Shown here piece after piece: positions 31,297-52,308 of a DNA stretch of 64,000 bases; the stretch's first letter is position 1; every line of letters starts with the position of its first letter. Both the position numbers and the translations under genes were made by a program. The DNA is taken from the NCBI GenBank assembly GCA_026125895.1, contig JAHCKG010000008.1:1-64000 (forward strand), given 5' to 3'. The notes below the pieces were generated by a model that was given only the letters and a program-made list of their open reading frames with translations, had not been told where the DNA came from and searched no databases. Source of the DNA: Pseudolabrys sp. Lineage in GTDB: Bacteria; Pseudomonadota; Alphaproteobacteria; Rhizobiales; Xanthobacteraceae.

Positions 31297-32127
31297 TCAG
31301 AACAAACTGATCAAGAACCGCGTGCCGACCAGAATCAGGAAAGACGCGAACGCCACTTCCAGGCTGCGGCGCGACAGGCCGTGCGCCAGGCGCACGCCAT
31401 AGGTCGTCATGAAGCTGGCGACCGGCGCCATCAGCACGAAGCCGGGCAGCGAGACGAAACCCAGCGACAAGGGCGGCAGTTCGCCCATATGCGGCCAGCC
31501 GGCGGCGATGTAGCCGATGGTGCCGGCGATGGTGATCGGCACGCCGAGGCCGGCCGAGGTCGCCACCGCGCGATGGATGGGCTGGCCGTACAAAGTGAGG
31601 ATCGCGGTCGAGAAGCCGCCGCCCGACACGCCGACCAGCGACGACAGCGCGCCCATGGCAAAGCCGTAGGCCGACAGCACGACACGGCCGGGCAGTTCGG
31701 TGCCGATGTTGCCGCGGTGGGTGCCGAACAGCATTTTCGCCGACATCAGCGCGCAGAACGTGACGAAGGCGATCTTGAACACCGGGGCCGGCGCGAACGA
31801 GGCCGCCGCGGCGCCGATCAGGATGCCGGCGAGCGCCGCCGGGGTCCACAGCCGCAGTACGCCGGGGATGACCGCGCCTTTCTTCTGATGCGCCGAATAG
31901 GAGCGCAAGGTGGTCGGCACGATGATCGCGAGCGAGGTGCCGACGCAGAGCTGCATGCGCAGGTCGGCCGGCACATCCATGAAGCGGAACACTTCATAGA
32001 GGATGGGCACGATCACGCCGCCGCCGCCGACGCCGAACAGGCCGGCGAGAAATCCGGTGATGACGCCGCCGGCGAGAATGAGCAGCGCCAGCCAGGCCAG
32101 TTCGTTGACGGGATAGCCGAGGATCAT
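31297..32127 (-). CDS. TSUP family (TauE/SafE-like) anion permease
   Basis: 276 residues with about eight membrane helices and the TSUP repeat motif twice: FLAGLFGVGGGGVIVPIL and LSSLVGVSGGGFSTAIL. Family members export sulfite, sulfoacetate and related anions. The neighbouring genes do not indicate the substrate. It starts at ATG 32127, about 40 bases after the dusA stop, so it may be transcribed with dusA. Confidence 0.9.
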   Translation of the reverse strand: MILGYPVNELAWLALLILAGGVITGFLAGLFGVGGGGVIVPILYEVFRFMDVPADLRMQLCVGTSLAIIVPTTLRSYSAHQKKGAVIPGVLRLWTPAALAGILIGAAAASFAPAPVFKIAFVTFCALMSAKMLFGTHRGNIGTELPGRVVLSAYGFAMGALSSLVGVSGGGFSTAILTLYGQPIHRAVATSAGLGVPITIAGTIGYIAAGWPHMGELPPLSLGFVSLPGFVLMAPVASFMTTYGVRLAHGLSRRSLEVAFASFLILVGTRFLISLF

Positions 32128-32165
32128 GCGGAGCGCGCGGCGCGGGGACGGGCGGGAGGAAAAGC

Positions 32166-33170
32166 CTACGCCGCGATGTGCGCCATATCCGCGCCCGTGT
32201 CCACTACCAGCGCCAGCGCATCAGCCATGACGGCCGCCGAGGCGCCCGGCTTGACCGCCTCGACCGACAAATGGCGGCGGAAGGCGCGCGCGCCGGGCAC
32301 GGCGCGGAACAGGCCGAGCACGTGGCGGGTGATGGAATTGAGCCGCACGCCGGCGGCCATCTCGCGCTCGATATAAGGAATGAGCGCCGCGGCGGCTTCC
32401 TTGGCCGAGACGAACGGCGCGGCCTCGCCATAAAACAGCGGATCGACGGTCAGCAGCCGCCACGGCTCCTGATAGGCGGCGCGGCCGAGCATGACGCCGT
32501 CGAGGCCGCTGAGCTGGTCGCGCGCCTGCTCCAGGCTCGCCAGTCCGCCATTGAGCACGATCGGCCAATCCGAATGCGCGGCCTTGAGGCGATGCACGAT
32601 GGCGTAATCGAGCGGCGGCACTTCGCGGTTTTCCTTCGGCGACAGGCCCTTGAGCCAGGCCTTGCGGGCATGGACGATGAGCGCGTCGGCGCCGGCCTGC
32701 TTCACCTGCTCCGCAAACGCGAACAGCACCTCTTCCGGATCCTGATCGTCGACGCCGATGCGGCCCTTGACCGTGACCGGCACGCGCACCGCCGCCTTCA
32801 TCGCCGCGACGCTGTCGGCGACCAGCTTCAGCTCCAGCATCAGGCAGGCGCCGAAGCGGCCTTCCTGGACGCGGTCGGACGGACAGCCGACATTGAGATT
32901 GATCTCGTCATAGCCGAAGCCCTCGCCGATCGCTGCGCTCTCGGCCAGCGCCTTGGGATCGCTGCCGCCGAGCTGCAGCGCGATCGGATGTTCCGCCGCA
33001 TCGAAGCCGAGCAGCCGATGCCGGTCGCCATGGATCACGGCGCCGGTCGTTACCATCTCGGTATACAGCAGCGCCCGGCGCGTCATGAGGCGATGGAAGA
33101 ACCGGCAATGCCGGTCCGTCCAGTCCATCATGGGTGCAATACAGAAGCGCCAATGGCTGAAATTGCTCAA
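32166..33170 (-). CDS. dusA: tRNA-dihydrouridine synthase A; 5' end remade by the integrated element
   Basis: A flavoenzyme reducing U20 and U20a in tRNA D-loops. Motifs are CIAPMMDWTDRHCRFF, LQLGGSDP, INLNVGCPSDRV (catalytic Cys), VKGRIG and LNGGL. The body is intact. There is no ATG before the core MMDWTD; the nearest starts are TTG 33170 (LSNFSHWRFC) and TTG 33266 further out. All bases upstream of about 33160 look like element DNA with lower GC. This is what is known for dusA-targeting integrases, which recombine at the 5' end of dusA and supply a new start and promoter. I use TTG 33170. Confidence 0.9.
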   Translation of the reverse strand: MSNFSHWRFCIAPMMDWTDRHCRFFHRLMTRRALLYTEMVTTGAVIHGDRHRLLGFDAAEHPIALQLGGSDPKALAESAAIGEGFGYDEINLNVGCPSDRVQEGRFGACLMLELKLVADSVAAMKAAVRVPVTVKGRIGVDDQDPEEVLFAFAEQVKQAGADALIVHARKAWLKGLSPKENREVPPLDYAIVHRLKAAHSDWPIVLNGGLASLEQARDQLSGLDGVMLGRAAYQEPWRLLTVDPLFYGEAAPFVSAKEAAAALIPYIEREMAAGVRLNSITRHVLGLFRAVPGARAFRRHLSVEAVKPGASAAVMADALALVVDTGADMAHIAA

Positions 33171-33260
33171 AAATCTCGTTCCGTCAGTGGCTTGGCCCGG
33201 TCTAAAACAGCGGGTATTTCCGGGCGTTCTGGGTCGTTTTCGGGCATTTCCAACGCTAAA

Positions 33261-33277
33261 GTCCAACGCCGTTGGAC
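33261..33277. promoter_or_regulatory. Perfect palindrome before the integrase gene
   Basis: GTCCAAC-GCC-GTTGGAC, 22 bases before the integrase ATG, with another GTTGGAC at 33291-33297. It may be an operator or arm-type site for an integrase or excisionase. No binding protein is known. Confidence 0.5.
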
Positions 33278-33299
33278 TCGCGAGGGGAATGTTGGACCG

Positions 33300-34367
33300 A
33301 TGGGTACGATCTTAGAGCGCAGGCGCAAAGATGGCTCCACAGGCTACACGGCGCAGATAGTAAAGAAGAGTGGCGGCAAGGTCATCTGGCACGAGGCCCA
33401 GACGTTCGACCGCCGGCAGGCGGCAACCGCTTGGCTGGCCCGCCGGGAGGCGGAGCTTGAGGCGCCGGGGGCCATGGAGCGCCCGGAAGACCCCAAGTTG
33501 GGAGCGGTCATTGACCGGTACCGCGAGGAATCCGCCAAGGCCATAGGCCGGACCAAGGCCCAGGTTCTGGACACGATCAAGAAGTACGACATTGCCGAAC
33601 TGCCCTGCTCCAAGGTCACCAGCTCGGAGATCGTCGCCTTTGCCAAGGCCCTGCCGGTAGCCCCTTCAACGGTCCAAAACTACCTCAGCCACCTCGGGGC
33701 CGTGTTCAAGATCGCCCGTCCGGCTTGGGGGTACCCCCTGAGCTATCAGGCGATGGAGGACGCTTACCTTGTCACGTCCCGGCTCGGGTTAACCGCCAAG
33801 AGCAACCAGCGCGACCGCCGTCCGACCCTCGAAGAATTAGATTTGCTTATGGAGCATTTCGGAACGGTCAAGGCGCGCCGCCCGGCCTCTGCGCCGATGC
33901 AGAAGATAATCGCTTTCGCGATCTTCTCCACCCGCCGTCAGGAAGAGATCACGCGCATTGTCTGGACGGACTTTGACGAGGCCAATAGCCGCGTTCTGGT
34001 CCGCGACATGAAGCACCCCGGAGACAAGATCGGGAACGATACCTGGTGCGACCTGACGCCAGAGGCCGTCGCTATCATCAAATCAATGCCGAAGCGGGCA
34101 AAGGAGATTTTCCCCTATTCGACGGACGCCATCAGCGCGGCCTTCACGCGGGCCTGCAAGGTTCTTGGCATCGAGGACTTGCATTTCCACGATCTACGGC
34201 ATGACGGCATTTCGCGGTTGTTTGAAATCAAGTGGCACGGCGGCAGCATTCCGCACGTTGCCACCGTTTCTGGCCACCGGAGTTGGCAGAGCCTGCAACG
34301 CTACACCCATTTGCGGCAGACAGACGACAAGTACGCCGATTGGCGATGGAAGGAGATTTGGCAATGA
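33300..34367 (+). CDS. int: Tyrosine integrase, dusA-associated type
   Basis: 355 residues. N-terminal arm-binding domain, core-binding SAM-like domain (about 60-170), then the catalytic domain with the Arg in FSTRRQEEITR, the HxxR box as HDLRHDG, and GHRSWQSLQRYTHL carrying the second His and the nucleophilic Tyr. It is adjacent to dusA and points away from it, the arrangement described for dusA-associated integrases (Farrugia et al.). ATG 33300 gives MGTILERRRKDG, a usual beginning; the frame is open upstream through dusA but only as antisense. Intact, so excision is limited by the missing right site rather than by the gene. Confidence 0.93.
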   Translation: MGTILERRRKDGSTGYTAQIVKKSGGKVIWHEAQTFDRRQAATAWLARREAELEAPGAMERPEDPKLGAVIDRYREESAKAIGRTKAQVLDTIKKYDIAELPCSKVTSSEIVAFAKALPVAPSTVQNYLSHLGAVFKIARPAWGYPLSYQAMEDAYLVTSRLGLTAKSNQRDRRPTLEELDLLMEHFGTVKARRPASAPMQKIIAFAIFSTRRQEEITRIVWTDFDEANSRVLVRDMKHPGDKIGNDTWCDLTPEAVAIIKSMPKRAKEIFPYSTDAISAAFTRACKVLGIEDLHFHDLRHDGISRLFEIKWHGGSIPHVATVSGHRSWQSLQRYTHLRQTDDKYADWRWKEIWQ

Positions 34368-44731: not shown

Positions 44732-45455
44732 TTACTGTTTGCCCTGCAATGCTTCCATCAGGAGCATTTTGGCGATGGCGGCTTTCTTGCCGAGATGTGA
44801 CGGCATGCTATCCGCAGCTTTCAAGGCCTCTTCGTAAAGAGGCGAGCGCATGCGAACTAGTTCGTCAACGTTGTTGAGGCTGCGTTTGGCTAGGGCATTG
44901 GCGATGGCCTTGGAGCCTGCACCAGCAACGGCAGGAGCAACGCCGCCGATGAGCGCCCCCGGAATGCCGCCGACCGCAGCGCCAGCGCCGCCGCCTAGAG
45001 CGCTAATCCCGGCCTGGCCGACACCACCGCCACCGCCCAGGAGATTGCCGATATAGCGCGCCGTATTGCGGGCTGGTCCGCCTTGGAGAACGCCGCTAAG
45101 CGCCTCAAGCTCTTTGTCAGAAAAGCCGGAAACTTCCTTCGGTTTTTCTAGGAGAGAAGCGACTTTCTGGCGGATTGTGTTGTCAATATTTCGACCGGAA
45201 TTTGCGGCTTGTGCTCTAGACTCGGCACGTTCGAGAATGCCGGTCGTTGCTCTATCGAGAGTGCCTGTGAGGTCGTTGGAACGCATGGCTGCGGCGTAGT
45301 TGCCGCGACCTCTTTTGAGAAGGTCCGCCGTGGCGGCAGGGGTTCCAGCCAGAACGTCTTTCTGACTAACGTTCGGAATAAACTCATCCAGTCCGCGAAT
45401 GGCCTGAGACGCGGCCAATTGGTCCTTGGCGGCCTGCGGATTGAAGTTCTGGGCA
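44732..45455 (-). pseudogene. C-terminal part of a phage DNA-ejection-like protein
   Basis: The part with phage character ends near 45455. It has IRGLDEFIPNVSQKDVLAGT, RGNYAAAMRSNDLTG, SGRNIDNTIRQKVASLL and a Gly/Ala-rich C-terminus, patterns of podovirus internal or ejection proteins. The open frame continues to 45700 but the last 80 codons are antisense to the marR relic, so the N-terminus of the phage gene has been lost. Confidence 0.75.
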
Positions 45456-45466
45456 GCGACCGCGAC

Positions 45467-45934
45467 TTCCGCGAACTCGTCCATAACCTCTTCGGCTTCC
45501 TCGCCCTGCACGAGCGCCTGCGCAGCGGCCACGGCAAGTATATCGGACTTGGCGGCGTTGAGTACACCGTCCTGATCTCGATCGGACATCTGGCGCGCGA
45601 TGGCGACGTTAACGTCAAGACCGTTGCGGATCATCTCCACTTGTCCGGTGCCTTCATCACGGCGACAACGAACCGGCTGCTCAAGAGGGGCTACATCCAC
45701 AAGACCGTCGACACGGCCGACCGTCGGCGCGTCACGCTAGCGGTTTCGAGCAAAGGCCGCGCCGCTCTTGAATCGCTCGCGCCGGTGCAGAGCCGGCTTA
45801 ATGATATCGAGTTCGCCGCGCTGAGCCGTCAGGAGTTCCTGATGCTGAACGACCTGCTGCGCCGGATGATTGCCGACAGCAACCGCGCCGTGGCCCTGCA
45901 AGACTATTATCTGGCGGGCGGCGAGGAGGCATAA
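45467..45934 (+). pseudogene. MarR family regulator, 5' end lost to the prophage junction
   Basis: From about 45467 the frame reads LVHNLFGFLALHERLRSGHG, GLGGVEYTVLISIGHLARDG, VKTVADHLHLSGAFITATTN and DTADRRRVTLAVS: a MarR winged helix with its C-terminal dimer helix. The first helix and start are missing; upstream the frame becomes antisense to phage DNA. The gene's neighbours on the chromosome side are also broken. Not expected to be functional unless a new start is used. Confidence 0.78.
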
Positions 45935-45973
45935 CGGCTAATCAAAGAGCGAAGTCCTTGGGGCGGCCTCAGA

Positions 45974-46198
45974 ATGCGGCCGCCACGGCTGCAAGGCTCC
46001 CGACCGCTTAGCTATCGCTGGCTGGGCGACTATGAAATCGCCTCGGAAAACTCGACCGGCCTGACGACGCTGCAATCCCACGCTTACGAATTGGGGCACG
46101 AAGCGATGAACATGACCATCAAGCGCGGCGCCGAGACGAAGCCGAGGAGCAAGATGATCGATACCGGCTTTCAAATCGTCAAAAGGGCCAGCGCCTGA
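45974..46198 (+). pseudogene. C-terminal fragment of a LacI-type regulator (tentative)
   Basis: 74 codons in a host-like frame. GLTTLQSHAYELGHEAM and MIDTGFQIVKRAS resemble the last part of LacI/GalR ligand domains. The DNA-binding and most of the sugar-binding domain are absent. A sugar-binding transport protein is an alternative. Confidence 0.4.
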
Positions 46199-46258
46199 TC
46201 CAATCGACGTGAGATCGGCCGGCAATGGCCTGCCCCTAGCAGGCTGTTATCCGTAGAG

Positions 46259-46364
46259 GCGGCCGCGCTGACACGGACGACGGCAGTCCTGCTGATCGGT
46301 CCCTTGGTATGACGCGCGGCCTCTCACAACCTGATCAACCGACATGCAAAGCGGCCGCGCTGAC
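46259..46364. repeat. 14-bp direct repeat pair
   Basis: GCGGCCGCGCTGAC occurs at 46259-46272 and 46351-46364, followed in both by (A/G)CGG. It lies between the lacI-like relic and the iterons. Could mark an element end; not proven. Confidence 0.5.
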
Positions 46365-46439
46365 GCGGCCGACGCTAACTTGACGTCATCACAATGTGAA
46401 ACAAATTGCGGACATCTGTTACTTTTCGCGCAAAAAAAA

Positions 46440-46771
46440 CGTTGCACCAGCGAAAGCAAACGTTACGCCAGCAAAAACAAGCGTTACATCACCGGAGAAA
46501 TGCGTTGCACAGGCGGAAACAAACGTTACGCGCGCCTGCCCCTCGCTATTGTTTTTATTGAGCAATTTCGGCTAGAGCCCCGAATTTAATCGGAGACAAA
46601 CGTTGCACCGCCGAGCAGACGGGGGGAGGGGTCGCGGATCTACTTTTTAGTGATTTTGGGCCAGCATTTCCGGCATTTCCAGGAGTTCCCGGATTGTCGG
46701 GATCGGCCAAAAAAATGCTTTCCGGGTTAAGCGTTGCAAAGTCGGAAACAAACGTTGCATTTCGCCTGCGC
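46440..46771. repeat. 21-bp iteron array, putative replication origin
   Basis: The core CGTT(G/A)C starts at 46440, 46461, 46482, 46503 and 46524, exactly 21 apart, once at 46601, and at 46732 and 46753, again 21 apart. Most units continue with C/A-rich bases and end in a GAAA-CA or similar run. Spacing of two helical turns places all cores on one face of DNA, as in plasmid iterons bound by a Rep protein. AT-rich sequence lies between the groups. No Rep gene with known motifs is in the window. Confidence 0.75.
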
Positions 46772-47075
46772 AATGGGCGGCCGAGATTTTTTTCGCGCGC
46801 CTCTGAGCGGCCTCAATACTTTTCGTTTTGCTCGAAAAGCACCCCTCATCAGCGCCGGCAACACAGCTCGTAGGGCTGGCAATGCTTTGATGATCTGACC
46901 GCGGTGAGCCCACTGTCGGCCACGATCAAGAGCGACTTAAGGCGCCTTAAGTCGCACCACGCTTTCGAACACCTTTGCCGAACTGGTGGATGAGGGCACG
47001 TTGGCAGGTTGCACGGAGGGTTATCGTGCAAACCCCATTTTTATGCGCCCCGACTCAAGCGTGCCCAGCTATCTC

Positions 47076-47245
47076 GTCCGATGACGCGCCCGCACCGGAC
47101 GGACGAGCGACTTGATCTCGTCCGAACGTCTGGACGTCCGGACGGACGGACGAACCCGACGATCCGGACGAACGGCTTGAAGGCCGACCAACCGGACGTA
47201 AACGCGAGTTTCGTCCGGAAAGATTCCAAAAACTTTTCCCCGTCC
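47076..47245. repeat. Cluster of GTCCG / CGGAC words
   Basis: Within about 170 bases the words GTCCG or CGGAC recur ten times or more, many in the form CGGACGGACGA and ACGTCCGGACGGAC. They do not show one strict period. They lie between the iterons and the PrtN gene and may bind a regulator or just be slippage. Confidence 0.5.
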
Positions 47246-47315
47246 GGTCGGTTTCTGTGGATCATGCCCACGCAGCTCTTTGGCGACTTGCCGAGAGGTG
47301 TGCGCAGAATAAGCC

Positions 47316-47567
47316 ATGACCGAAAACGATCTCACCAGCGAGCCAACCTTATTCTTTTTAATGGCGCAATATGGCGGCCGGACGGTGGTCCCGCTGGCCC
47401 TGCTCCGCAAGTGTCTCCGCGGCGACCTTCAGCTCGCGATCGTCCGCATCGAGACCTCGCAAAAGTCGGCCCGCGGCGTCCATTTAGTCGACCTCGCCAA
47501 TTACATCGATGCCCGTCGGGCGGCGGCGCTGAAGGAGAGAGATCAACTATGCGGTCTGGATCCATGA
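47316..47567 (+). CDS. Pyocin activator PrtN-family protein, shortened
   Basis: 83 residues. TLFFLMAQYGGRTVVPL starts it, and LAIVRIETSQKSARGVHLVD then LANYIDARRAAA ends it, as in PrtN. The usual middle segment (about 15 residues around C-x-DYF-x-HL) is absent, with VPLALLRKCL joining the two halves. PrtN activates pyocin genes in Pseudomonas, but in mobile elements of other bacteria such proteins are small regulators. ATG 47316 chosen. Confidence 0.75.
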   Translation: MTENDLTSEPTLFFLMAQYGGRTVVPLALLRKCLRGDLQLAIVRIETSQKSARGVHLVDLANYIDARRAAALKERDQLCGLDP

Positions 47568-47835
47568 AGTACGCCACGGGTACGACCTTCTCCTGCGCCG
47601 ACCGCCGATTTGCGGCGTCGCCGGACGGTCTGGTCCCATCATCAACTGCGGCGCGTTTTTGCCCGCAGCAACCATCGCTGCTCGTTCTCGCAATGCCCTA
47701 CCTAATTCACCGCATTCGCGCCCGCGTCGCTTCGAGGCGACTCGGCCGTGTTTCTACTCGTTTCGTCCGTAGCCGTGGTCCGTGGTCCGTAGTCCGTATC
47801 CCCTTTAACAACGCATCGCAGAGGATCACATCACC

Positions 47836-49392
47836 ATGACCGAACAGAAGACCACCTCCGCCGCCACTGCCGACAGCCTTCGGCACGAGTTCAGCGCGTC
47901 ACCGCCACAAGCGATCAAGGCGCCTCGGCCGCTGCCCCGACCAAGCGCGGCGTCGGCGCCGAGCGCCAAAAGCGGGGCCCTCCGCGGTGAAACGCCGGAC
48001 GAGATCGCGGCGCGTCTGACAGCCCGCATTACCCTGCCGGCTGCGAAGTTGGACCGAAAACACGTACCAGCCGAATTGCTGGACGCCCTCGACAGAGCAG
48101 GGCTTGGCTCCAATGACGCCCTTCCCGCCGGCCTGTTCTCCGCGCTAGCCTTGATGTCCGCCGCGGCCGGTCCGCGGGTAACCGTCGAGCCGATTGATGG
48201 GCTCGGCTTGGGGCCCAAAAATGCTGCCCTGCGCGTGTGCCTGCTGACCGAAGACCGCTCGGTTCCTTTGATGTCGGCAACCGTTATGGAGGCGGCATAC
48301 GGTCTGCAGAATGACCTCCTCGACAGGTACACGGCGAGGGTCGCCATCGAAAGGAGTGCCCTCGCCGTTACTGATCGTCGGAAGCTGCACGCGCTCGCAA
48401 CACAAGCGGCTCTGGCTCTCGGCAACCCGATGCCACCGCCACTGGCGGACGACGCGCAGGACGGGATAGAGGCCCCACCGCGATTGGTCGTCGACGATGG
48501 CGCGCTGCGCGCCCTCATCGACGCGTCCGCCGGTGGAACCGGAGTGTTTCTGTCAGATGAGCGTCGCATGGCAAACTTCGCGCGCGCCGGCTGCGGAGAT
48601 CCGGTCACCGCCGCCGCATTGAACGCCACGGCCCTCGGCCACCCTCTCGTCGGCACCGACCGCAAATCCGGCCGAGTGGCTCTGCGGCGCCTCCCCGTCT
48701 CCGTCGTCGGCGTCCTGACCATCGCGGAGTGTGAAGGCCTCCAGACGGCGAAAGCGGAGGAATCGCTCGGGACGGTGTTCGTCCGGGCGAGACCTCACGC
48801 TGGCGGCGGCGACGGAACGGCCCTGCTCGCTCTGGCCCGCCGCATCCACGAGCTCGGCGCCGCGAATGACACAAAGCTAAGGCTGCACGAGCCCGCCATG
48901 ACCGCCCTGGTGGCGGCGGCGGATCGCTGGAAGATCGGCGTCGATCCGCGCCTCAATCCGCTCGCGACTTACATCGACCAACTGACGGATATGGCGCTTC
49001 GCCTCGCGGTCGCGTCGCACCTCGTCACCTCTGCCTTAGACATGAAGCTGTCGGCGGAGATCCCCGTCACAGCCATGCGGACGGCCATCGGCATTATCGA
49101 CGATCTCGTCCTGCCAGCATCGCGGCACGTTCTCGCCCCGGTCTCGGCGGCGTCGACGGAAGAAGCCGATGCCATTCGTATCATCGCCGCTCTGCGACGT
49201 CATACCAGCGCCGCCGACCCCATCATTGAGAGACGCGAGCTCTATCGCGGCCTGCAGAACTCGGTGCCTTCTATGCCGCGTTTCAAGGCCGCCGCTCGTT
49301 TGCTGCATCACCTCAAGTTGATCACTCCGGCGCCGCCGCCGGATGGCCGGAAAGGCGAGTACCTCGCGAGCGAGGCGCCCCTACACAACTGA
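47836..49392 (+). CDS. DUF3987-like protein of a mobile element
   Basis: 518 residues. A Pro/Ala/Ser-rich start (about 1-55), then LDRKHVPAELLDALDRAG and FSALALMSAAAGP, matching the front of DUF3987 proteins. The middle has FLSDERRMANFAR and TAECEGLQ-like IAECEGLQTAKAEE, and the end RRELYRGLQNS and AARLLHHLKLI fit the family C-terminus. DUF3987 proteins are primase/helicase-like replication proteins of plasmids and islands. No Walker A is visible where one would be expected. It is host-like in GC. Confidence 0.55.
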   Translation: MTEQKTTSAATADSLRHEFSASPPQAIKAPRPLPRPSAASAPSAKSGALRGETPDEIAARLTARITLPAAKLDRKHVPAELLDALDRAGLGSNDALPAGLFSALALMSAAAGPRVTVEPIDGLGLGPKNAALRVCLLTEDRSVPLMSATVMEAAYGLQNDLLDRYTARVAIERSALAVTDRRKLHALATQAALALGNPMPPPLADDAQDGIEAPPRLVVDDGALRALIDASAGGTGVFLSDERRMANFARAGCGDPVTAAALNATALGHPLVGTDRKSGRVALRRLPVSVVGVLTIAECEGLQTAKAEESLGTVFVRARPHAGGGDGTALLALARRIHELGAANDTKLRLHEPAMTALVAAADRWKIGVDPRLNPLATYIDQLTDMALRLAVASHLVTSALDMKLSAEIPVTAMRTAIGIIDDLVLPASRHVLAPVSAASTEEADAIRIIAALRRHTSAADPIIERRELYRGLQNSVPSMPRFKAAARLLHHLKLITPAPPPDGRKGEYLASEAPLHN

Positions 49393-49475: not shown

Positions 49476-50387
49476 TCAGGGGCCCACCCGACATACATTC
49501 CGCTCCGCCGACAACTCGACGAATTTCGCCCGCAGGGCTTCGAGTTCATGTTCGGCGGCAAGGCGGCGCTGGCTTTCCAAGGCTACCAGGTCGGTCATCT
49601 GACGAAGCCGATCGGCGTACACATCGTATGCTTCCGCCCTCGCCGCGGCTTCAGCCTCAACGATCTCGCGATCCGCAGTCATTTGCAGCTTCACACGCTC
49701 CTCCTCGAGCCGGTTCTTCTCGAGTTGCACTTCCCTTGCGAGCCGCCGCCGGCGTGACCCAAACCGGCTGTGGCCGAACTTGCGGCCAATCGCGGCGTGA
49801 AAACGATCCTGCAGGTCTCGCATTCCCACGCGATAAGCGGCGTCCTGTGCCTTCTTGTGCTGACCTTCCGCGGCCGCCTTGGACTTTGCACGATATCCTG
49901 GATGGATCGCGTGGATGTTGAGCCGCCGCTCCGCGCTCAAGGTTGGGACGACGTAAAAGTGAATGTGGGGATACTTTTCGTCAGTGTGCTCGACAACGCT
50001 GCGAAGATGATCGCCGAACTCGGCCTTCAGCCAGTCGACTACTTCCCACACCCACCACCGGTAATAATCCCCATCGCCCACGCCGGATTCCACCAGTCTT
50101 CGCTCAGCAGGATAACTTACGACGCCCGCCAGCAGTGCGATGCCATCTCTTCTCAGGCGTCGACCCACCTTGTCGACAGCCATCGCCGCTCTGCCGTTCG
50201 CCTCCGCGCCCGCGATGGTTGGCGACACTCCAAATAGAAGCGATGGCGGCGCGGGACTTTTGATATGACCACACGCAGTGGGCAACCGTTCGCCTTCCGC
50301 CGTGATGCCCTCGACGCAAGACCACGATGGCCTGCCTTTACGCGGCGCCCGACCATAACAACCGATACGAATAAACTGTGCTGACAT
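49476..50387 (-). CDS. MobV-like relaxase (plasmid mobilisation protein)
   Basis: 303 residues from ATG 50387, which follows GGAGGG by four bases. VVEHTDEKYPHIHFYVVP is the HxDExxPHxHF relaxase motif of the MobV/Pre family. A long coiled coil ends it (about 215-290, VQLEKNRLEEERVKLQ). It would nick an oriT for transfer with a helper conjugation system. The N-terminal catalytic Tyr/His region is shorter than in Pre. It is convergent with the DUF3987 gene. Confidence 0.8.
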   Translation of the reverse strand: MSAQFIRIGCYGRAPRKGRPSWSCVEGITAEGERLPTACGHIKSPAPPSLLFGVSPTIAGAEANGRAAMAVDKVGRRLRRDGIALLAGVVSYPAERRLVESGVGDGDYYRWWVWEVVDWLKAEFGDHLRSVVEHTDEKYPHIHFYVVPTLSAERRLNIHAIHPGYRAKSKAAAEGQHKKAQDAAYRVGMRDLQDRFHAAIGRKFGHSRFGSRRRRLAREVQLEKNRLEEERVKLQMTADREIVEAEAAARAEAYDVYADRLRQMTDLVALESQRRLAAEHELEALRAKFVELSAERNVCRVGP

Positions 50388-50630
50388 AGGACCCTCCATG
50401 TCCAAAGACATTCGGCGCCCGGCGAGCAAGTGCAAAATGATTTCTTGCCCCGATATCAGCCCGAGGAACGGGTTCCGAGGTCCGCCGATATCCTATAGAC
50501 CGACTAGGATAATCGAGGTTTGAGTCAGCGCTTCGCAACCAGCGCGGATTTCAGCCGACGGAGAAAGCAAGTCTATACGTCGTGACCTGCTTCTGCTTCA
50601 CATCGAAACTCACGCCTTCTCCGCTAGGGA
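50388..50630. other. Upstream interval of the relaxase; candidate oriT region
   Basis: 243 noncoding bases. CCGATATC occurs twice (50450 and 50485), flanking an almost perfect palindrome GGAACG-GGTTCC. oriT sites of MobV plasmids usually lie just upstream of mob, so this is the natural place to look. Nothing more can be shown by eye. Confidence 0.35.
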
Positions 50631-51134
50631 TTAGATCTGCGCCAGCATCGCGGCGACGTCGGCGATCGACCGGAGCAGAACCAATGGATCGTCCCTCGAC
50701 GGGATAAAGCCTCGTCGCTGCCAGAACCGGGCAGCCTCTTCATCGACGGCGTTGACGATGAGCGCCCGCCCACCGATCAGGCGCGCCGCCTGAACGCAAC
50801 GCTCAAGGGCATGCTTCATCAAGCCAGTGCCGATGCCCTGTCCGGCCCAGGCCGTATCTGTGGCGAGCTGTCCGAGAAGCAGACAAGGAACAGGATTGGG
50901 CGGCTGTCCGGTACGGATCGCGCGCGGCAGGATCGAAGGGACAGCCCCGGTCGGCGCAAGCCCGTAATAACCGACGACGCGCCCCGCATCATGGATAACC
51001 ATGACCGCTGTGAAGCCCTTTTCCTGATTGGAAAGCGCGCGCATCTTCAGCCAGCGGTCGAGGGTCGGCTTGCCGCAGGAGAACTGGGAAACATCATGCT
51101 TAGCGGTGAGCGGTTCGGGAGCCGATAGCGCCAC
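50631..51134 (-). CDS. GNAT acetyltransferase toxin of a TacAT-type module
   Basis: 167 residues. It is the aminoacyl-tRNA-acetylating toxin family: SQFSCGKPTLDRWLK, GYYGLAPTG, the CoA loop GQGIGTGLMKHAL and the tail FWQRRGFIPSRDDPLVL. In characterised TacT the catalytic Tyr lies in FYxxxGF; here that position is Trp (FWQRRGF), a variant. The antitoxin lies just upstream, three bases before the toxin start. Confidence 0.88.
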   Translation of the reverse strand: MALSAPEPLTAKHDVSQFSCGKPTLDRWLKMRALSNQEKGFTAVMVIHDAGRVVGYYGLAPTGAVPSILPRAIRTGQPPNPVPCLLLGQLATDTAWAGQGIGTGLMKHALERCVQAARLIGGRALIVNAVDEEAARFWQRRGFIPSRDDPLVLLRSIADVAAMLAQI

Positions 51135-51137
51135 GGC

Positions 51138-51437
51138 TCACCGCTTCGCGACGTAGCCAGGCTCCCATGGGGCGGGCCGCTTGAGCACTTCCATCATCTC
51201 GGGAACGATCGTAGGCGGACGGGACAGGATTGCCATGAAGTCGGCGAAGCCTTCGGGGCTCATGCGGATCAGCCCCTGCTCCATGACGACTTCCTCGGCG
51301 GCCCGGACGGCGGCTTCGCGAACGAAATCCGTCCGAGAACGGCCACGCAGGTTGGCCGCGCGATCGATCATCGCGACATCCGCCTCCGGCAGGCGCATCG
51401 AGATCGGGTATTCCTTGCGTTCGACGGTGGCGGGCAT
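51138..51437 (-). CDS. DUF1778-family antitoxin of the TacAT-type module
   Basis: 99 residues. The N-terminal ribbon-helix-helix is PISMRLPEADVAMIDRAANL with RGRSRTDFVREAAVRAAEE, the DUF1778 pattern. The C-terminal arm would wrap and block the GNAT toxin. ATG 51437 follows AAGGAG by seven bases; ATG 51443 is too close to it. It normally represses its own operon. Confidence 0.9.
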   Translation of the reverse strand: MPATVERKEYPISMRLPEADVAMIDRAANLRGRSRTDFVREAAVRAAEEVVMEQGLIRMSPEGFADFMAILSRPPTIVPEMMEVLKRPAPWEPGYVAKR

Positions 51438-51578
51438 GGTCATTCTCCTTGACCAGAATATAGCGATTTGTAGTGCCAAACGCAATACGCCATCATCAGC
51501 TCTATTCGCAGTCGGCCTGTTACGACAAACGCCCAAAGCAGAGGACTGCTCCGGCTCGTTGAGCCCGAACTGACCCTC

Positions 51579-51698
51579 GTGCGGCGTGGCGATGGTCCCC
51601 ATCCGCGGCTGGTCAAGTTGGCTCGCCTGCTCGCCCGTCGTGCCGCGCTAGAGGTGTTCGAGGGACAGGGGAAGAAACGCCCCACGACGAGCTCCTGA
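51579..51698 (+). CDS. Short protein of the kind found upstream of serine recombinases
   Basis: 39 codons from GTG 51579: HPRLVKLARLLARRAALEVFE then a short basic tail. Similar small proteins precede site-specific serine recombinase genes in Hyphomicrobiales (memory). It lies 20 bases before the recombinase relic and is probably a relic too. Confidence 0.45.
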   Translation: MRRGDGPHPRLVKLARLLARRAALEVFEGQGKKRPTTSS

Positions 51699-51717
51699 CA
51701 TGGCAGGAGGCAGCGCG

Positions 51718-51831
51718 GTGAAGGTTGCGAATTACGCCCGTTAGTCGTCCGACGATCAGCGGGATGCCTCAATCACCGACCAACTCCGCGTCTGCCGTCT
51801 CCATGCCGAAAAGCAGGGCTGGCAGGTGGAA
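51718..51831 (+). pseudogene. Serine recombinase N-terminal relic with in-frame stop
   Basis: GTG 51718 reads VKVANYAR, then TAG at 51742 where the family has Tyr, then SSDDQRDASITDQLRVCR and AEKQGWQVE. This is the start of a resolvase catalytic domain (normally YARYSSDxQRxxSIxDQ, catalytic Ser in YARYSS). It is cut at about 51831, where another gene fragment begins in the same frame. Confidence 0.75.
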
Positions 51832-52090
51832 GCTGTGATGCGCGGCGTGTCGATCGTCACCTTCAATCCGCTCCGCGAGCGCGATTACGCAGGAATGCTT
51901 TCGCGCATCGAAGTACCGACTCTCATCATTCACGGCCGCAGGGACTGCATCGTACCCTTAGTCGTCGGCCAATTCTGCGCTTCGACTATTTCGAATGCGA
52001 CGTTGAGTGTCTTCGAAAATAGCGGACATTCGCCGTTTGCCGAAGAGCCTGAGCGGTTCAAATGTCGCGATCCCGCGCGCCACCAGGCGG
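51832..52090 (+). pseudogene. Alpha/beta-hydrolase C-terminal fragment
   Basis: The reading continues as FNPLRERDYAGMLSRIEVPT then LIIHGRRDCIVPLVVGQF and ENSGHSPFAEEPERF, the late strands and catalytic Asp/His (HGRRD; SGHSPF) of an alpha/beta hydrolase. The nucleophile part is missing. It is fused in frame to the recombinase relic. Confidence 0.65.
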
Positions 52091-52308
52091 GACTAAATCG
52101 ATTCAACGGCTCTAGGTTCGCGGGCATACTGGGATCTCAGATCGAGAACACCGCGCCGCACGCGCGACCGATCCGCAGGCGACTCTCAAGCTTTTCGCCG
52201 CCCACAGCCGCCAGCGCCGCAACGCCCGAAATGGCGCGAACCTTGCGCTTAACCTCATGCCTAAATCGTCAAATTCATTCTGAGCCGCTATTCACAATTG
52301 GAGGTAAT

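Follow-up and report, generated by a model that had tools for sequence, protein, structure and literature searches.

What is the function of an array of short direct repeats, spaced by 21 bp, that lies within an island of a Pseudolabrys genome? Theta origins typically have clustered iterons with a spacing of 21-22 bp, and in a preliminary description of this DNA the array was read as a plasmid origin inside the chromosome, possibly with a DUF3987-like protein as initiator. In this study we analysed the first 64 kb (hereafter the window) of a contig of 154,797 bases, taken from an assembly of 4.52 Mb in 50 contigs with an estimated completeness of 82%, and compared it with a set of 43 genomes of the genus, including a second species (G295) and a third species (G283).

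Eight sites with helical phasing

The eight CGTT(A/G)C cores of the array start at 46440, 46461, 46482, 46503, 46524, 46601, 46732 and 46753, just as first described: five follow each other at exactly 21 bp, the sixth comes 77 bp later, and the final pair begins after a further 131 bp. The 21-bp array was also reported by TRF, independently. These are direct repeats at two helical turns, with an extended unit close to AACAAACGTTRCACC; iteron origins are likewise marked by several direct repeats, of 17-22 bp, at helical spacing. In the whole window CGTTRC occurs 42 times on the forward strand and 37 times on the reverse strand, the longest run at 21-bp spacing comprising five cores; in 100 order-2 Markov windows, with any spacing of 12-40 bp allowed, the longest run was one in 55 windows and two in 45, and never more.

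The surroundings are gene-poor, as had been noted: among the ORFs scanned between the end of a MarR-like ORF (45934) and the start of the PrtN-family gene (47316), Pfam gave no match, and nothing in Rfam matched within 45900-47900. The PrtN-family, DUF3987-type and MobV-like relaxase genes were likewise found in the places given for them (Table 1). Beyond the five phased cores, the block around the solitary site aligns with G295 (BLAST E 8.5e-7), and the block around the final pair is recognisable in G283 too.

Table 1 Features of the island in the window, with coordinates and supporting evidence
Feature	Coordinates	Strand	Evidence
dusA	32166..33170	-	NCBIfam DusA equivalog, E 2.9e-149
Tyrosine recombinase, 355 aa, adjoining dusA 5' end	33300..34367	+	PF00589, E 1.2e-12
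Five 21-bp-phased CGTTRC cores	46440..46529	+	Motif positions, TRF, Markov control; G295 counterpart L015:10562-10651
Solitary site (core 46601) and G-rich block GAGCAGACGGRGGGRGGGGTCGCGG	46589..46636	+	79% identical to G295
Paired sites (cores 46732, 46753) and block ending in T run	46722..46796	+	73% identical to G295
rdfN / PrtN-family gene, 83 aa	47316..47567	+	PF11112, 60.2 bits against a cut-off of 24.2
DUF3987-type protein, 518 aa	47836..49392	+	Ring-helicase-like predicted fold; no Walker A motif
MobV-like relaxase	49476..50435	-	MobV, 39 bits (cut-off 100); below both curated cut-offs
Inverted repeat TATCCTA-tagaccgac-TAGGATA, oriT candidate	50489..50511	.	Just upstream of the MobV-like relaxase gene

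The array is carried by a dusA-type integrative element

The island belongs to the dusA-type integrative elements and has a recombinase of its own, which lies at the 5' end of dusA here as in G295; the island also contains a PF11112 gene. The notion of a plasmid origin in the chromosome thus keeps its origin-like array and has to be amended as to the host, which is not just a plasmid. The dusA gene resembles those of G263, G142 and G070 only as far as 33140-33149, and its 5' end beyond that point is unlike theirs; an altered dusA 5' end of this kind is described for dusA islands in the available part of an earlier report (PMC4482086). After the recombinase the order is phage-like, with HNH endonuclease, spanin, tail collar and head-protein matches, followed by the array, the PF11112 gene, the DUF3987-type gene, the relaxase gene and a TacA/GNAT pair. 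A MarR-family match (45209-45934, Pfam E 5.4e-8) overlaps the head-protein-like ORF on the opposite strand (44732-45700), which is likely a junction of phage and other DNA.

PHROGs assigns the PF11112 gene to an excisionase family (phrog_1300, E 1.3e-15), and RdfN, a member of PF11112, is the excision factor of dusA elements in the available part of the published work (PMC8409611). The gene, first described as a PrtN-like regulator, does belong to that family, and its role is most likely that of RdfN. Its product lacks 14 residues found in the G070, G295 and G283 proteins; the gap appears to remove the first part of the DNA-binding domain, and unless it is an assembly error the protein is probably impaired. 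As for the 21-bp attL/attR sites, no second copy of the dusA core was found in the window at 20-64 kb, in the contig at 60-100 kb or in G295 at 46-84 kb; the missing attR may have decayed. Because of the 14-residue gap and the lack of a right attachment site in the parts searched, the element in the window probably survives as a stranded remnant. No weight was given to a dusA-like core next to the DUF3987/Mob remnant of G263, which was scored against a consensus entered by hand and lies inside an SDR-like ORF.

G295 has dusA and a recombinase, with about 72% DNA identity to the window over 31381-34349, and the DUF3987-type gene, the array and rdfN follow some 20 kb further on. When 30 window ORFs were compared with the G295 island, only rdfN and the DUF3987-type protein matched, the recombinase being matched by DNA. 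The G295 island also has defence-like cargo, with matches to C5 DNA methylase, AbiEii/DUF6088, the GmrSD C-terminal domain and AAA/peptidase M41 (L334, L015). The TacA/GNAT toxin-antitoxin segment of the window (50585-52183) shares 98% identity with a segment of G070:C74, much more than the DNA around it does, and by this comparison appears to be a recent transfer; from 52258 on, the sequence matches a LysR region situated elsewhere in G070 and G263. With these two stretches, the island may be composite.

The array in related genomes

The module was found in three of the 43 genus genomes, each time 230-563 bp upstream of rdfN, which itself occurs in four (that of the window, G295, G283 and G070). 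Site offsets are 0, 21, 42, 63, 84, 161, 292 and 313 in the window and 0, 21, 42, 63, 84, 161, 291 and 312 in G295, that is, equal to 1 bp. In G295, CGTT(A/T)C describes six of the eight sites; the remaining two, assigned by their register, have degenerate sequences (TGTTAC, CGCAAT) and fall within the five-core cluster (L015:10562-10651). Invariant core positions agree at 36 of 40 between the two species and spacers at only 24-44%; in this alignment, the spacing is shown to be conserved although the spacer sequence has diverged. The G283 array is a remnant of four degenerate copies, with spacings of 21, 24 and 22 and a AACGGGGGG stretch in common, and lies upstream of rdfN in inverted orientation. 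The distance from array to rdfN is 563 bp in the window, 230 bp in G295 and about 370 bp in G283. Linkage of module and rdfN gave a hypergeometric value of 3.2e-4, which is biased, G283 having been noticed via its rdfN, and which rests on three occurrences, one of them degenerate.

In G070 the recombinase, rdfN and the DUF3987-type gene are present and the array was not found; its rdfN leader is 73% like that of the window from 47018 on. Immediately upstream of its rdfN, where the window has the array, G070 carries a gene for a 921-aa MobA/MobL relaxase (L300:14866-17631, L036), possibly as the result of a module swap. Within the rdfN leader of the window a run of CGGACGGACGA-type repeats at 47080-47210, visible in G070 as well, is possibly an rdfN operator; the G283 leader has a hairpin instead.

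Comparison of the 21-bp unit with plasmids and mobile elements, advised in the preliminary description, gave no match to the module in plasmid or phage collections, which does not help the origin reading. Across 397 genomes of the order the window alone scored strongly (57.7 bits), four others reaching 14.5-18.5 bits; model R1 was made from the three known copies, and its matches to them are by construction. As exact patterns, the G-rich block and the pair block each occurred zero times in viral contigs. Between other genera, none of 14 rdfN-family loci had a 21-bp-periodic array upstream, in an insensitive test that missed G295 too; among all 18 loci tested the window was clear at spacing 21 (0.622, with the shuffles reaching at most 0.467), and L019, L020, L027, L028 and L031 were slightly above their own shuffles at other spacings. 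Six stretches read from 13 plasmid records with rdfN-family genes contained no CGTTDC pairs 19-24 bp apart. PF11112 was found in 385 genomes of the class only in the window itself, and none of 29 stretches from viral contigs was confirmed as an rdfN relative.

Several further candidates were rejected. A module match in G297 (E 0.035) was taken as chance, and a first module BLAST listed 248 of 296 genomes at E <=1, all but G295 being short chance matches. A loose three-site pattern occurred in 11 of the 43 genus genomes, the nine outside the window and G295 equalling the nine matches of the reversed control and being set aside as chance. A similar pattern, run on viral and genome collections, gave several 21-bp runs among the matches listed, by selection for such runs.

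A weak case for the DUF3987-type protein as initiator

The 518-aa protein had no Pfam match and did not reach the PF13148 cut-off; since two of seven relatives pass that cut-off, it appears to be a divergent relative of DUF3987 (PF13148). Its AlphaFold2 model (mean pLDDT 79.9) matched PDB structures of MCM subunits (best E 1e-5, query-normalised TM about 0.2-0.4 among the matches listed) and models of phage DUF3987/helicase proteins (best E 3.6e-12, TM about 0.5). A Walker A motif is absent from all eight DUF3987-type sequences, the G263 one being truncated before that place, so that an ATP-driven helicase role seems unlikely; the protein may have a binding role. The gene occurs in nine of the 43 genus genomes, once as a weak fragment, and no such protein was found in plasmids, phages or GTDB contigs. 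It lies downstream of the array in the window and upstream in G295, and relatives are present in five genomes where no array was found (G263, G070, G200, G245 and G216). On these data it makes a poor candidate for the initiator.

Discussion

We propose that the array serves to bind the initiator of an iteron-type replication origin, belonging to a dusA-specific integrative and mobilizable element, and we judge the chances of this being right to be about even. It is the best single explanation for repeats set two helical turns apart, for a layout in several clusters that is kept in G295, and for a mobile island with a mobilization gene; to that extent the first reading of the array as iterons stands, its proposed initiator aside. 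Int and RdfN would excise the element as a circle, which could replicate for a while from the array once an initiator of no recognised family had bound the CGTTRC sites in tandem, and replication would let the element survive mobilization by its MobV-like relaxase. A self-contained module fits better than part of a promoter, because the distance and orientation of the array to rdfN vary and its internal spacing is fixed. The array is also separable from the rdfN leader, since the G070 leader has none.

Several observations count against an origin. Pfam found no Rep or other recognised initiator family in 53 ORFs of the window and G295 islands (31 of 47 and 19 of 54 listed ORFs, plus three), in agreement with the early remark that no classical RepA/RepC gene is near; in the PHROGs comparison of the islands, 25 of 49 families were listed. 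Apart from the lack of a recognised initiator gene and of a plasmid or phage match, there is a single near-consensus DnaA box (one mismatch, at 47264, 0.5 kb off the array), with none at the other two loci, and AT-rich segments are modest, with GC down to 0.37-0.50. The gene set of G070 without a detected array and the 14 loci of other genera, in the insensitive test, count in the same direction.

The dusA element IMEVchUSA3 neither excised nor replicated once its rdfN was deleted; rdfN supplied ectopically brought back excision and left replication abolished, according to the part of the account available (PMC8409611). By analogy, this would be expected if something required for replication lay in cis close to rdfN; polar effects would explain it equally well, and those organisms are far removed from this one. 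That an eight-site iteron origin beside rdfN represents a new replicon class in the dusA-type elements of this genus, with a non-canonical initiator that would be RdfN or the Walker-less, MCM-like DUF3987 protein, we consider distinctly unlikely; if true, excision and replication would be joined through a single small protein.

The main rival is a regulatory array, bound by RdfN or another regulator that would control rdfN and so excision. The position of the array beside a recombination gene leaves room for a regulatory or recombination role, and all three arrays lie directly upstream of rdfN, with the bias given above. Pseudomonas PrtN, in the available parts of the reports, activates genes by binding repeated P-boxes, and the window too has a PrtN-family gene beside repeated sites; the P-box repeats, however, measure 10-11 nt and follow a different consensus, ATTGnn(n)GTnn(n) (PMC4905994, PMC8609362), which has no match in 46400-46800 or in the rdfN leader. 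Moreover, no promoter-like site above chance was found on the rdfN strand, the array varies in distance and is inverted in G283, and the leader in common with G070 carries no array; a G070 rdfN gene without any array found counts against both this reading and the origin. We regard regulation as possible but rather unlikely.

The repeats might instead be arm-type sites for Int or RdfN in an attachment region, which we think very unlikely. The adjoining gene is of the excision-factor family, and the G295 array is near the likely right island end, just before a SelO-like gene (the end position was not located); against this, a 1.6-kb attP-int fragment of IMEVchUSA3 and RdfN sufficed for excision in the published account, as far as available (PMC8409611). 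Furthermore, about 12 kb separate the recombinase gene from the array in the window, and in G295 the distance is about 20 kb; rdfN and two more element genes lie between the array and the right side of the window element. Plasmid centromeres also contain iterated direct repeats, a point in favour of a partition site or other centromere-like structural array of a former plasmid, but Pfam found no ParA/ParB-type family among the 53 ORFs and we give this reading little credence. A chance or low-complexity repeat without function, to which the presence of the module in merely three genomes would be congenial, is barely credible in view of the Markov statistics and the conserved spacing between diverged spacers in G295.

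Iteron origins of the RK2, pSC101 and R6K type have direct repeats 21-22 bp apart in several clusters, as here; the window differs in that no Rep gene of known family was found and its module is unmatched in plasmid records. For the origin reading, SGI1 offers the best precedent by analogy. In the portion of the source available, SGI1 carries an iteron oriV near xis (S004-rep-oriV), and has, like the probably mobilizable island described here, iteron-type direct repeats in an integrative mobilizable element near an excision-factor gene (PMC7433901). It has a rep gene with a RepA_C domain, whereas no rep family was found in the window island, and its iterons, four in number, GC-rich and 17 bp long, with a DnaA box that has AT-rich regions on either side, differ from the unit and layout in the window (PMC7433901).

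IMEVchUSA3 and related dusA islands share with the window a tyrosine recombinase at the dusA 5' end, a PF11112 rdfN gene and, probably, mobilizability, and the window differs in that attR was not found in the parts searched; the available parts of these reports identify IncFII_repA-type replicons or none, and mention no iteron array beside rdfN (PMC8409611, PMC4482086). We found no published account of such an array in the open-licence literature, an absence that is not proof. Elements of the dusA type are widespread, and one of them at least multiplies once it has been excised, by a replication gene that its authors could not name (PMC8409611). The conserved eight-site module beside rdfN offers a short candidate replication origin in a related element, and bears on a possible coupling of excision with replication at a single locus.

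The inverted repeat just upstream of the relaxase gene is a candidate oriT. Its block was compared in other genomes: a copy in G216 (L016:8660) agrees at 21 of 35 bases, which is background score only, and agreement at 26 of 35 bases is seen in G263 (L010:11603) and also in G245 (L013:11818), where the block again precedes the relaxase gene.
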